From contig DAOUUR010000045.1 of NCBI GenBank assembly GCA_030668045.1, positions 1 to 10,160 on the forward strand: a DNA stretch of 10,160 nt, given 5' to 3'. The translations under genes were made by a program, and so were the position numbers. Shown one piece after another: positions 1 to 9,854 of the stretch (position 1 is its first letter; the number at the start of each line of letters is the position of its first letter). The notes under the pieces are model-generated. The model worked only from the letters and a program-made list of their open reading frames with translations, was not told the DNA's origin and ran no database searches. The stretch comes from a bacterium. GTDB taxonomy: Bacteria > Zixibacteria > MSB-5A5 > GN15 > FEB-12.

Positions 1-385
1 ACCACTCAAAATACACATCGTAACCTTTTCCCTCCATATTCCTTCCTGCTTCCAACATTCGCTCCAACGCCTCGGGTGTATATATCTCCGAAGCGTTTGA
101 TAAACGCTTAGCCACGAAATGCTCGCCATCGCCCCGTGCTATCCATTCGGGCAATGGAGTTGATTTGACAGATTCCACCGCCTCAAAAACATGGGACTTA
201 CCGTCCTTGACATATACGATGCCCATGTGGCTGTATTGCGAGTGCGTCGCGATCTGAATTGCTCGGCTTTGGGAGGAACGAGATGTATGGAATACAATGT
301 CACCGTTGCGAGGATTGTAGGACGAGTCCTTGCCACACCCCTGAAGGGAAGCCAGCGACATGAGAATAAGTATAAGTTGTTTCAT
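1..385 (-). CDS. YiiX/YebB-like lipoprotein, permuted NlpC/P60 (papain-like) family, 3' end cut by window edge
   Basis: Reading from an ATG at 385, the first 128 codons are visible and the frame is still open at base 1. The N-terminus is a short lipoprotein signal (hydrophobic residues 4-14, then LQGC with Cys17 as the likely lipidated residue). The body has the family pattern: GDIVF at 28-32, a YSHMGIV block at 51-57 whose His53 fits the catalytic His of permuted NlpC/P60 enzymes, and FEAV at 67-70. KGYDVYFEW at the cut matches the segment that usually comes just before the catalytic Cys (YCSELV in relatives), so the Cys is probably just outside the window. Such proteins are thought to be amidases or peptidases acting on cell-envelope or lipid substrates; the substrate here is unknown. 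The gene follows atpC by 87 bases on the same strand. No clear Shine-Dalgarno sequence precedes the start. Confidence 0.75.
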   Translation of the reverse strand, partial: MKQLILILMSLASLQGCGKDSSYNPRNGDIVFHTSRSSQSRAIQIATHSQYSHMGIVYVKDGKSHVFEAVESVKSTPLPEWIARGDGEHFVAKRLSNASEIYTPEALERMLEAGRNMEGKGYDVYFEW

Positions 386-2335: not shown

Positions 2336-3202
2336 TCAGCCTTTGAGGGCTTCAGCGCCGGAGACGATCTCCAGCAGTTCCTTGGTAATCTGTCCCTGAC
2401 GCGCCTTGTTGTAATCAAGGGTCAGACTCTTCATCATATCGCCGGCGTTGTTGGTGGCGTTGCCCATCGCAATCATCCGGCTGCCGTGCTCACTTGCAAA
2501 CGATTCCACCAGCGCTGTTACCATCTTGGTGGTGGCATAGCCGGGCATCAACGCCGAGTAGATCATCTCGGGGTTCGGCTCGAAAATATATTCGCGGTGA
2601 ACGTCGCTATCGTCCTCAACTTCGGGTCGGGCTATCGGTAGATATTTTTCGACAACAATGCGATACTTGACCGTCGAGATGAAACGGGTGAAGATCAGAT
2701 CAATCTGATCGGTCTCGCCGGAGATAAACCGGTCGGTCAGGAAAGCGACCACTTCTCGGGCCTTATCATAATCAAGCATCCCGCCCCAGTCGGCCCAGTG
2801 TCCAACAATCGGCCACTCGCGCCGTTTGAAAATATCGTTGGCTTTCTTGCCGATGGTGACGATCTCGACATCGGTACCCTTATTTTCTCTTAGCCACTTG
2901 AAGGCGGTACGGATGACATTGGCATTAAACGATCCGCAGAGACCGCGGTCGGACGCTGAGATAACGAGCGTCTTTTTCTCAACCGGTCGTTCTTCAAAGT
3001 ATGGATGAATGATCTCGCCGGTCGACCCTGAAGCCAGGTGCGAAAGCATTTCGTCGAGCTTGGCGGCATATGGACGTGCCTGCTCGACCCGTTGCTGGGC
3101 GCGCCTGAGTTGCGCGGCGGCCACCATCTCCATTGCCTTGGTGATCCGCTGGGTCGATTCGACCGTCTTGATTCTTTTTTTTACTTCTCTAAGTGTCGCC
3201 AT
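2336..3202 (-). CDS. atpG: F1Fo-ATP synthase gamma subunit
   Basis: Gamma is the rotating central shaft that links the c-ring to the three catalytic beta subunits. The 288-residue product has the long N-terminal helix that opens the family (MATLREVKKRIKTVEST, then QRITKAMEMVAAAQL), the core motif SDRGLCGSFN at 84-93, and the C-terminal coiled-coil helix ending ITKELLEIVSGAEAL at 272-286. The frame stays open 16 codons further upstream, but that stretch overlaps the preceding gene and is not gamma-like, so the ATG at 3202 is chosen. A GGAG lies 12 bases before it. It begins 17 bases after the stop of the second beta-barrel gene rather than after atpA, so its translation may depend on that inserted gene. 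Confidence 0.98.
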   Translation of the reverse strand: MATLREVKKRIKTVESTQRITKAMEMVAAAQLRRAQQRVEQARPYAAKLDEMLSHLASGSTGEIIHPYFEERPVEKKTLVISASDRGLCGSFNANVIRTAFKWLRENKGTDVEIVTIGKKANDIFKRREWPIVGHWADWGGMLDYDKAREVVAFLTDRFISGETDQIDLIFTRFISTVKYRIVVEKYLPIARPEVEDDSDVHREYIFEPNPEMIYSALMPGYATTKMVTALVESFASEHGSRMIAMGNATNNAGDMMKSLTLDYNKARQGQITKELLEIVSGAEALKG

Positions 3203-3219
3203 AAACTCGTCAAGCTCCG

Positions 3220-3891
3220 CTATCTTCCAAACCCAAGACCAACCGTGCAAGCGATCGATCGAGTTCTGACTGCTTCACCATATGAATCGAAAATCGCCGC
3301 CAACCCATGACTATACCGTATTTCCATCAAGAATACACCTTTGTTCATGGGGAACTCAAGCCCGCCCACGATAGACAATCCGTAATCAATATCCTTCTCA
3401 AGCGGGTCACCACGAAGAGTGATGATCTCACTCCAATCATCAATAAGCCGCAGTTCTTGTTTCTCCCTGGAATCCAATTTGGCGGCAAAGAATGATCCTA
3501 CACCCACAAACGGAATCGGGCTAACACTTGATGGAAATCTAAGCCCGAAAAGAACAGCATTCACATCAAGATAATATAGATCGAGCGTATGCTCTCCGGT
3601 CGAATATCTGTTACTCCAATACGGGAGGAAACCGCGGCGAGCTCGCTTTAGGCCGAAGCTGACCTCAAAGCGCATGAAGTTCTTCTCCTGTAGCGATGTA
3701 GTCAAGAAGAGTCCGCCTGACACGCCTGCGGCGGGCCTCCATCCTAGCGCTGTCTTACCTGAAATGCCTCCCCAGGTAGGTCCGGCTTTTGCACCCCATG
3801 TCCAGGAAGAGGCATGGACCCCAGATGTTATCAAGAGGGAGCACACGACTACAACAACGGTCCAGATGCGGTTGTGGGATGATCCTGACAT
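3220..3891 (-). CDS. secreted beta-barrel-like protein 2, inserted in the atp operon
   Basis: About 223 residues. A hydrophobic segment near residues 10-24 with a likely signal peptidase I site after VHA (residue 27) predicts export. The mature part alternates short hydrophobic and glycine-rich strands and opens with WGAKAGPTWGG, like PorT/OmpW-type outer membrane barrels. RYSHGL near 192-197, preceded by FPMNKG, is shared with the gene upstream (RYSHGL, VPLANK), so the two are probable paralogues. The C-terminus is GLGFGR, not the terminal aromatic residue typical of BAM substrates. A strong AAGGAG lies six bases before the ATG at 3891; another ATG at 3894 is only three bases away. Arg codons include at least five AGA/AGG, which seem rarer in atpA and atpD by eye. 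Role unknown; it could be a porin, an assembly factor or a structural barrel. Confidence 0.8.
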   Translation of the reverse strand: MSGSSHNRIWTVVVVVCSLLITSGVHASSWTWGAKAGPTWGGISGKTALGWRPAAGVSGGLFLTTSLQEKNFMRFEVSFGLKRARRGFLPYWSNRYSTGEHTLDLYYLDVNAVLFGLRFPSSVSPIPFVGVGSFFAAKLDSREKQELRLIDDWSEIITLRGDPLEKDIDYGLSIVGGLEFPMNKGVFLMEIRYSHGLAAIFDSYGEAVRTRSIACTVGLGFGR

Positions 3892-3928
3892 CATCGACTC
3901 CTTACTGCGTTTGTCTGTTTTCTATCTC

Positions 3929-4579
3929 TCAAAACATATATCCCAAGGAAACACTAGTCGACGAAATCTGGGTCTCGTGAAATGCCCCCCACCATTCTAT
4001 TTCGGATTGATCCAAGCCGTGACTGTACCTGCAATCCAATAACAACATCTTGTTGGCGAGCGGAACTTCCACTCCCATTCCAACAACAAGATTGAGACTC
4101 CACCTGTCTCCTTCAAGATCCTGCCCGCTTTCCCGAATGGTGTTAGACCAGATGTATTCCTCATCTATGAACTTGCGGAGACACTCGCCGTCCAACATGT
4201 ATACCAGAGACGTACCGACTGTGAAGAACGGAGTTGTCTCACAACTGACGGGCACACGGTAATTCAACAGAAGCGGTGTCTCTAAGTAAAAGAACGGATG
4301 GGTCTCGTGGCCCAACGCGCTTTGCATACCCTTCTTCGTAAACAGCAGCTCAGATTGAAATATAACTCGTGAAGAGAGGCCGATTCGAGAGATCACCCCA
4401 AGACTGAATCCGGTCAATGATTCCCAGCCCAAGATCCGGATTTCGTCCAACTCGAAGTTGGACCAGTTCAGACCCGCTCTCACGCCGAAATCGACCGCCT
4501 CGCATGCCTGATACGACAGGCTTACAGCCACAACAACGGCGAGTACAAGTATGATATGTCTGGTCCCTGAGGTCTTCAT
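3929..4579 (-). CDS. secreted PorT-like beta-barrel protein 1, inserted in the atp operon
   Basis: About 216 residues with a signal peptide (hydrophobic 9-23, probable cleavage after ACEA near residue 28). The mature protein looks like the PorT-like outer membrane beta-barrel family: GVRAGLNWSNF at 32-42 after the signal, SELLFTKKGM at 76-85, YLETPLLLNYRVP at 98-110, and RYSHGL at 184-189. It ends SLGYMF with a terminal Phe, the classic outer-membrane barrel signal. Four Cys residues are visible; one lies in the signal peptide, and whether the other three pair is unknown. The start chosen is the ATG at 4579, 17 bases after the atpA stop; a GTG one codon upstream is possible, and the ribosome site is weak. 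The second barrel gene follows after 34-37 bases. Its function is not known, and nothing in it suggests contact with ATP synthase. Confidence 0.82.
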   Translation of the reverse strand: MKTSGTRHIILVLAVVVAVSLSYQACEAVDFGVRAGLNWSNFELDEIRILGWESLTGFSLGVISRIGLSSRVIFQSELLFTKKGMQSALGHETHPFFYLETPLLLNYRVPVSCETTPFFTVGTSLVYMLDGECLRKFIDEEYIWSNTIRESGQDLEGDRWSLNLVVGMGVEVPLANKMLLLDCRYSHGLDQSEIEWWGAFHETQISSTSVSLGYMF

Positions 4580-4596
4580 CACATCTCAGTTTGTTG

Positions 4597-6105
4597 TCAG
4601 GCCTTAAACCCTGCCTTGAATTTCTCGATTGCTTCCTTCAGTTTAGCATCCATCTCCTCGGAGATGATCTTCTCTTTGGCCAGCGTTAGCTCAATATCTG
4701 GGTACTCTTTTTCACAGAAGACAAAGAACTCTTCCTCGAATCGCGCGATAGCATCGTTGGGGATGTCGTAGAGGAACCCTTTAGTACCGGCCCAGACCAT
4801 TATCACCTGGCGAGCAACCGGCATCGGGACATACTGCCCCTGCTTGAGTAACTCCACCATTTTCTGACCACGGTTCAACTGTTTCTGGGTGGCTTCGTCA
4901 AGATCGGAACCAAACTGAGTGAAGGCTGCCAGTTCGCGATACTGGGCCAGATCGAGCTTGAGTGATCCGGCGACCTGGCGCATCATCTTTACCTGGGCGT
5001 TACCACCGACGCGCGAGACGGAGATACCAACATTAATGGCCGGACGAATACCGGCAAAGAACAGTTCCGACTCCAGGAAAATCTGGCCGTCGGTAATTGA
5101 AATCACGTTGGTTGGGATATAGGCCGAAACATCGCCCGCCTGCGTTTCGATAATAGGCAGCGCCGTCAACGAGCCACCGCCCAGTTCATCGGAAAGCTTC
5201 GATGCTCTCTCCAACAGGCGTGAGTGACAATAGAAAATGTCACCGGGGTAGGCTTCGCGTCCCGGTGGACGACGCAACAGCAGCGACAACTGGCGATACG
5301 CCTGAGCCTGTTTTGACAGATCGTCATAGATGCAGAGTACGTGCTGGCCGTTGTGCATGAATTCTTCGCCGATCGCACACCCTGCGTACGGGGCGATATA
5401 CTGCAGCGGAGCGGGGTCGGTAGCCGTGGCCGCCACTACCGTCGTGTACTCCATCGCACCATTCTTGCGTAGAGTGTCAACTACCTGAGCGACGGTTGAA
5501 GCCTTTTGTCCGATGGCAACATAGATGCAGAAGACATCGGTATTTTTCTGGTTGATAATCGTATCAAGGGCGAGTGCCGTCTTGCCGGTCTGGCGATCAC
5601 CAATAATCAATTCGCGCTGGCCACGACCAATCGGAATCATTGAATCGATTGCCTTCAGTCCGGTCTGCAGCGGCTCTTTCACCGGCTGTCGTTGTACGAC
5701 GTTGGCGGCGAGGCCTTCGATAACACGGTACTTGTCGGTCGCGATTGGACCTTTTCCGTCGATAGGTTGACCAAGCGGATTGACCACCCGGCCGACCATC
5801 GCCTCACCAACCGGCACAGAAGCAACTTTGCCTGTGCGGCGAACAGTGTCACCTTCGTTAATAGCGGTGTCGGGGCCAAACAGTACGGCACCAACATTGT
5901 CCTCTTCGAGGTTGAGCACCATCCCTATAATGTCACCGGGGAACTGGATAAGCTCGGACATCTGGACATCTTCCAGACCCCAGATACGGGCGATACCATC
6001 TCCGACCTGGAGAACAGTCCCGACCGATTCCATCTCAAGCTTCTTCTCGTATTTCTCAATCTCTTTTTTCAGAACTGAGGATACTTCTTCAGGATTTAAT
6101 CCCAT
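4597..6105 (-). CDS. atpA: F1Fo-ATP synthase alpha subunit
   Basis: Alpha alternates with beta in the F1 hexamer (three copies) and holds the non-catalytic nucleotide sites. The 502-residue product is of normal length. Visible are the N-terminal helix that meets delta, the beta-barrel domain (about 26-95), Walker A GDRQTGKT at 169-176 (Lys175), the Walker B segment LCIYDD ending at Asp261-Asp262, the signature [10 protein letters not shown] at 355-364, and the arginine finger Arg365 in SVSRVGG that completes the catalytic site on beta. [15 protein letters not shown] has Cys where Leu is usual, probably harmless. The ATG at 6105 has AGGAG eight bases upstream, directly behind a six-pair hairpin. 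Unlike most bacterial atp operons, the next gene is not atpG but a beta-barrel gene. Confidence 0.99.
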
Positions 6106-9407: not shown

Positions 9408-9854
9408 GTGTGTGTACCGCCTATCGACCTTTCACGACAACCACCGACTTGCTCCGGCTCCATTCAGGCTCAGATGAACACTCAACCGGATATCAGAGAC
9501 CACACTTACAATAACGGTCGACTGTATACCATCTTTAACAACAATGGCATCGCGGGTAATTTCTTTGACTTTGACGACGGGTACGAAAACCGCAATACCG
9601 AACTGGCTGATGACCGCGCCCGCAACATCTATTTTGCCAATCTTCCAAATCGGTGCGCTATTTCAATATATTCAATCGATGGCGACCTCGTTCGCAAGAT
9701 CGAGCACGACGAACCGACGGGAAACGCTACAGCCTCAACCGAACGCTTCAGCATGATTACACGAAACACCCAAGCTCTGGTATCCGGTCTGTACTATTGG
9801 GCAATCGTCTCAGAGTACGGCACTCAAATTGGTAAACTGGTGGTAATCAAGTAA
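9408..9854 (+). pseudogene. C-terminal remnant of a secreted protein with a type IX-like sorting domain
   Basis: The last 75-125 codons read as the tail of a large exported protein: IYFANLPNRCAISIYSIDGDLVRKIEH, then SMITRNTQALVSGLYYW and a closing GTQIGKLVVIK. This beta-sandwich tail is common at the C-terminus of secreted proteins in FCB-type bacteria, where it can direct type IX secretion. The tail never works alone, yet here there is no signal peptide and no upstream domain. The frame opens just beyond the MITE-like element, with only a GTG (9408) or an ATG lacking a ribosome site (9474). A good terminator follows the stop. I read it as the 3' end of a gene truncated by rearrangement, possibly by the element. 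A short real gene is less likely. Confidence 0.55.

Follow-up and report, generated by a model that had tools for sequence, protein, structure and literature searches.

The gap between atpA and atpG in one family of Zixibacteria is probably a site where genes for small outer-membrane barrels are exchanged repeatedly, entering and leaving by recombination that would be anchored in the atp genes themselves. We give this reading, drawn from comparison of sequences, a probability of roughly 60%. Within the family, the state of the site changes at least ten times; outside it, none of the readable genomes examined has a barrel there. The junction between atpA and atpG is a well conserved one. If one family does keep it as a variable slot for surface proteins, a core operon can be a safe landing site.

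The window, by which we mean the whole stretch of 10,160 nucleotides analysed, comes from the genome called G000 here, and all genes and spacers of the site lie on its reverse strand. From atpA (4597..6105, Pfam ATP-synt_ab), whose stop codon is the left edge of the putatively exchanged segment, a spacer of 17 nt (4580..4596) leads to the first barrel gene, b1 (3929..4579, 216 aa); a spacer of 34 nt (3895..3928) with a ribosome-binding-like motif, AAGGAG, precedes the second, b2 (3220..3894, 224 aa); and another 17 nt (3203..3219), with a GGAG motif at the edge, separate b2 from atpG (2336..3202, Pfam ATP-synt). The ATG of atpG is the right edge of the segment, and the 5′ end of the same gene is the portion that is seen as partial copies in relatives. 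The only long same-strand open reading frames in the gap are b1 and b2. Two same-strand, secreted-looking barrel genes between atpA and atpG, with 17-base gaps on both outer sides, had already been described in the sequence-only reading that preceded this work, and both points are borne out. No structured RNA was found in the window (0 Rfam matches at the gathering score). At its margins, a lipoprotein-like reading frame with a match to Peptidase_C92 (YaeF/YiiX amidase; E 4.6e-12) lies directly downstream of atpC (2-385, reverse strand) and is cut by the contig end, and on the opposite strand, past the atp operon, a short frame (9408-9854, forward) weakly resembles the Por_Secre_tail sorting domain, with a score under the cut-off (E 0.0017).

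What kind of proteins do b1 and b2 encode? Against PF13568 (OMP_b-brl_2) they score 52.7 and 35.3 bits, both above the curated cut-off of 27 bits, and their AF2 models have eight main strands in a predicted OmpA-like fold. In sequence and model, each N-terminus has a basic start and a hydrophobic helix resembling a signal peptide. They are predicted to be secreted barrels, as the sequence-only reading had supposed, with eight strands and an outer-membrane fold of the OmpA/OmpW-like kind, and not cytoplasmic proteins, and presumably they are expressed, exported and functional as such. Family and fold are already known: the barrels of PF13568 and PF13505 and the fold of OmpA, OmpW, OmpX and NspA belong to the same class. 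Compared with solved structures of the OmpA/OmpW/OmpX/NspA type, however, the window barrels show at most 17% identity in the top rows, and, unlike known PF13568 and PF13505 barrels, the pair sits inside an atp operon and b2 has no close sequence relative that could be found. b2 is 32% identical to b1; searched against 5.8 billion proteins, it matched only itself at the sensitivity of that search, and no donor was found. A sequence search of solved structures, with b1 as the only query, returned none. NCBIfam NF049866 (TDE1717 family barrel), with a cut-off of 135 bits, gave 45.6 bits for b1 and no match for b2, which places both outside that family. Arginine codon usage of the barrel genes differs from that of the atp genes, in agreement with the earlier impression.

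The edges of the variable segment can be read by comparison with congeners. G002, the nearest relative examined, has an AtpA 98% identical to that of G000 and 56 bp between atpA and atpG; G001, the other congener, has 164 bp there and no barrel. The DNA of G000 and G002 is 92.9% identical up to the atpA stop codon and 92.5% identical from the atpG ATG, and between these two points no alignment was found, the spacer between atpA and b1 included. In 60-nt steps, identity near the left edge is 0.87-0.88 and near the right edge 0.95-0.97, within 0.78-1.0 across the stretch inspected. A sharp edge where homology starts is found both here and between G051 and G013. The pair of G000 and G002 does not by itself say which of the two changed; gain in G000 is favoured because both congeners are empty, the codon bias differs and b2 has no close relatives. 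Insertion or exchange is the better reading, and it recurs in the family. The idea of a fixed lineage-specific insertion holds in its second half, as the arrangement belongs to one family among the genomes examined, and fails in its first, as the site is unstable and empty in G001 and G002.

Edges that fall repeatedly at the ATG of atpG might also be expected from a site-specific mobile element, integron-, IS- or ICE-like, aimed at the start of this gene. This is highly improbable: where both atpA and atpG flank the gap, only barrel reading frames are seen in it by eye; the window insert has no paired repeats at its edges, where short pairs occur but not at both; and the AtpG-derived tags described below vary in length from 47 to 97 nt. 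The queries A1 and b1 also have no relatives among viral contigs, on which ground a viral origin was set aside as well. Nor does the window gap, with b1 and b2 as its only long same-strand reading frames and no paired edge repeats, look like a transposon or integron cassette.

In the family of the window, atpG was searched in 54 genomes, and the gap was read from fetched stretches and from one atpA-side contig (G050). Barrels, one to five each, occupy the gap in 22 genomes; in 28 it is empty, with 13-164 bp; and four are unreadable, either for lack of an atpG match (G022, G023, G059) or with a partial one (G047). By our own count 35 barrel reading frames stand at the site, all on the atp strand. 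Most genomes have one, G000 has two, G050 two at a contig end, G013 three and G051 five, and G048 has two loci with four and two barrels, the second adjoining a run of N. The barrel of G044 is broken by such a run, with its start inside, and that of G068 matches PF13568 and is overlapped by a reverse reading frame. The slot holds different barrel types, namely PF13568 matches, PF13505-like ones and types below cut-off. Co-expression of the barrels with the atp genes is plausible, because all 35 run with the operon and no promoter of their own was found at the site. PF13568 matches in the family number 91, of which 24 lie in the atpA–atpG gap and the rest over 58 fetched places, some in tandem. 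Adjoining barrel genes away from the atp locus are seen in several family genomes (L164, L167, L173, L180, L183) and have no AtpG tags.

Could the window arrangement be an artefact of assembly or binning? G000 is a metagenome-assembled genome of 622 contigs with a contamination of 4.77%, and the contigs of several relatives end at the gap. Yet in 19 of the 22 barrel-bearing genomes atpA, barrel or barrels and atpG lie on one contig with a gap free of N (the contigs of G043 and G061 having the 3′ end of atpA only), and the window junctions coincide with gene boundaries, flanked on either side by DNA about 93% identical to that of G002. An assembly join, a worry voiced in the sequence-only reading, is thus hardly credible. 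Of the remaining three, G045 and G044 have contigs without atpA and G050 one without atpG. N-run joins are included in the loci of G044, G046 and G048; G048 (L144, L145) and G046 (L156, L157), each a single scaffold interrupted by N-runs, have two atpG matches apiece. Both G048 copies carry arrays of related barrels, and therefore the second may be a strain variant or a misjoin.

How often has the slot changed its state? On an AtpH-A-G-D tree (57 rows, quick method), presence and absence of barrels change at least ten times, eight of the changes being forced by starred branches, against about 18 in shuffles. A quite different history might still be imagined, in which one barrel gene was inserted in the ancestor of the family, was inherited vertically with very fast evolution, was duplicated in tandem in places and was lost many times, the tags being tandem duplications with the right breakpoint in atpG. 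Such an ancient insertion would be consistent with the barrel tree (89 rows), where location at the site or elsewhere changes six times against a shuffled mean of 21, and where no starred branch speaks against one origin, the starred branches forcing a single change. It would also agree with the related site barrels of congeners (G021, G056 and G060; G052 and G053). This tree holds 24 of the 35 site barrels and 65 of the 68 others; G068, three barrels of G013, #1 and #5 of G051, two of G050 and those of G045, G061 and G044 were left out, all but the first as other barrel types or incomplete. With its long branches and the unsure placement of G000_1 and G000_2, it neither supports nor rejects a single clade of site barrels. 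On the other side, the unrelated barrel types in the same slot do not fit an ancient insertion, nor do several properties of the tags, and we regard it as rather unlikely.

These tags are probably scars of exchange. In seven of the 35 site barrels (three in G051, two in G048 and one each in G013 and G050), the reading frame opens with the N-terminus of AtpG (MATLREVKKRI.. and variants), in frame with the core of a signal peptide. The tag comprises about 16-26 codons of atpG, or 47-97 nt by blastn, and none of the 68 barrels away from the site, at 58 places, carries it. Compared ungapped from the start codon with atpG of its own genome, it matches at 43, 41 and 43 of 47 nt in G051, at 72 of 78 in G013 and at 70 and 64 of 78 in G048; of its 16-26 codons, 2-6 differ synonymously and 1-6 in other ways. 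Upstream, the 40 nt before tag and before atpG match at 6-17 positions, in G013 at 6. A tandem duplication should copy the spacer too, and the G013 leader with its dissimilar upstream stretch therefore argues against the ancient insertion. The three tagged genes of G051, which match one another by blastn only over their first 47-66 nt (82-96%), point in the same direction.

A whole-genome search of the 54 genomes gave six partial leader copies, each just upstream of an atpG; it was not exhaustive, because the tag of G050 falls under its threshold. F1-gamma profiles recognize the start of the G013 chimera (residues 1-30 by NCBIfam, E 7.6e-6; 3-26 by Pfam, E 0.0006), below whole-protein cut-offs, and more weakly that of the chimera in the second G048 locus (G048b); two shorter G051 tags tested gave no match. 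A tagged G051 barrel searched against the 5.8 billion proteins had seven matches, all tagged, and a profile of ten tagged barrels had 146, of which the best 120 were listed. Among 125 retrieved proteins, which include the window b2 (P0001), agreement with the tag is bimodal: 24, including proteins of G048 and G050, match at 10-14 of 14 positions and 101 at five or fewer, a proportion that is not a frequency because the queries favour tagged proteins. Tagged arrays occur in two genera only (g12, g38) among the genomes examined.

The window itself is free of such scars. Over 14 residues, the AtpG match of b1 and b2 is at background, which puts them outside the tagged class; a partial atpG duplicate at the join, present in G013, G051, G050, G048 and the Elusimicrobium locus L074, is absent from the window. 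A vestigial leader in b2 (NRIWTV) was considered and dropped, its score of 12 lying within the range of 65 barrels elsewhere (up to 17). Capture of a leader at barrel loci away from atp was also considered; the 58 fetched loci have no match to AtpA, AtpG, AtpD or AtpH. For five of the 68 barrels elsewhere, in three loci, the first 75 nt are repeated; two of these loci hold tandem barrel paralogues and the third is L169.

Is the tag a scar at all, or is it kept because the start of atpG gives strong translation or a good n-region of a signal peptide? The tag stops at the start of the hydrophobic core and provides an n-region rich in Lys/Arg. It also hardly varies in an alignment where most rows share 18-24% identity with the first, as would be expected from retention for function. 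Nevertheless, 28 of the 35 site barrels do without it (one of them, in G044, with its start in the N-run), none of the 68 barrels elsewhere carries it, and L074 has a comparable piece with different cargo. Retention for function as the whole explanation is therefore doubtful, and the two may act together.

Several genomes show signs of probable rearrangement of the arrays. G013 and G051, of the same genus, align on the left side of the array; beyond it they differ as far as the leader ATG that opens the last barrel, and from there are 91.7% identical. The tagged barrel of G050 is a mosaic of two likenesses, one to G051 #5 (80% over nt 1-152) and one to the untagged G013 #2 (91.9% over nt 69-402). 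Its homology stops after nt 402 and the reading frame closes after 166 aa, close to the end of the contig, so that truncation or misassembly may be involved. In G048b, part of the atpA 3′ end is present as a copy (40 nt, 80%). In an Elusimicrobium (L074, MGUR01000062.1), a gap of 2.45 kb between atpA and atpG (L074:7516-9966) has non-barrel reading frames, an atpG stump identical to the real atpG in 24 of 24 residues with synonymous differences in 16 of the 24 codons, and a further remnant of 26 nt. It is the sole case flagged among 108 loci scanned, a set including short family loci with arrays cut off. So many synonymous differences are not what the tandem duplications of an ancient insertion would give. 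By their sequences, the stumps look like displaced atpG alleles of another lineage, as incoming DNA with its own atpG would predict.

How could a barrel gene be loaded at this place? In the exchange that we favour, incoming DNA carrying barrel, spacer and atpG would recombine on the right side through atpG homology. On the left side, homology in atpA would give a clean segment swap, as in the window, or else an illegitimate join would fall among the opening codons of the resident atpG and turn its stump into the start of the new barrel gene. Either route would leave an intact atpG, and existing stumps might serve as homology for further stacking, swapping and clean loss. Since b1 and b2 are free of scars, we infer, rather than read, this mechanism for the window copy. 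Transcription of the barrels would presumably run along with that of the atp genes; their products would leave the cytoplasm through Sec and settle in the outer membrane, a place in which phages or other surface interactions may select variable surface proteins. More tentatively, the 5′ end of atpG might be a docking site in its own right: DNA bearing atpG could load ahead of the resident atpG harmlessly, and each scarred loading would leave a stump that is both the start of the cargo and a handle for the next loading or for clean excision. This possible, and less probable, extension would make the slot a recombinase-free cassette array of surface barrels driven by the atp operon in one Zixibacteria family, with a like scar beside other cargo in another phylum.

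Homology-facilitated illegitimate recombination has been proposed for stacked orphan immunity arrays of Vibrio T6SS clusters (PMC5361080). As far as the excerpted text of that paper goes, the two systems share a conserved anchor, serial addition of modules, retention of displaced older modules and mosaic exchange by homologous recombination; they differ in that the anchor here is an ATP-synthase gene kept intact, the cargo is outer-membrane barrels, and the 5′ stump of the anchor starts the cargo protein. Variable segments of small size, lying between conserved genes or inside them (PMC2884548, in excerpt), are similar in that related genomes have short alternatives at one locus, whereas here one gap in one family is repeatedly the target of one class of surface genes across species and genera. 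Interruption of the atp operon has been argued to be harmful, according to an excerpt of PMC5709465. The atp locus is on record as split, in some lineages also between atpA and atpG, and as holding intervening reading frames (PMC4154653), but the excerpted text describes neither recurrent barrel insertion nor AtpG-leader chimeras. Among the matches listed for open-licence papers (titles and beginnings of abstracts), none dealt with barrel genes in an atp operon or with such chimeras. What would be new is an anchored exchange array in a core operon, with cargo that borrows its start from the anchor gene. Successive gene captures, seldom visible otherwise, would be on record in the stump chimeras, and these predict proteins whose secretion signal begins with a piece of an ATP-synthase subunit.

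Beyond the family of the window, the phylum sample of 132 genomes has 78 members, and in 64 of them atpA and atpG matches lie on one contig, as read by hand from the tables. None of these 64 readable Zixibacteria has a barrel between the two genes, and the barrel slot is therefore confined to one family in the genomes examined. The spacing is about 10-280 bp in 62 of the 64 and about 470-500 bp in two (G097, G034), where the extra length proved to be C-terminal extensions of AtpA and not barrels. AtpA frames of 666-674 aa, with a C-terminus about 165-170 residues beyond the usual, occur in L226 and L228 (G034, G037) and in L225 (G097), and in L226 AtpG is also enlarged (357 aa). In two bacteria of other groups, L077:5911-6464 and L090:6972-7548 hold similar-looking non-barrel reading frames of about 150 aa between atpA and atpG, as judged by eye.
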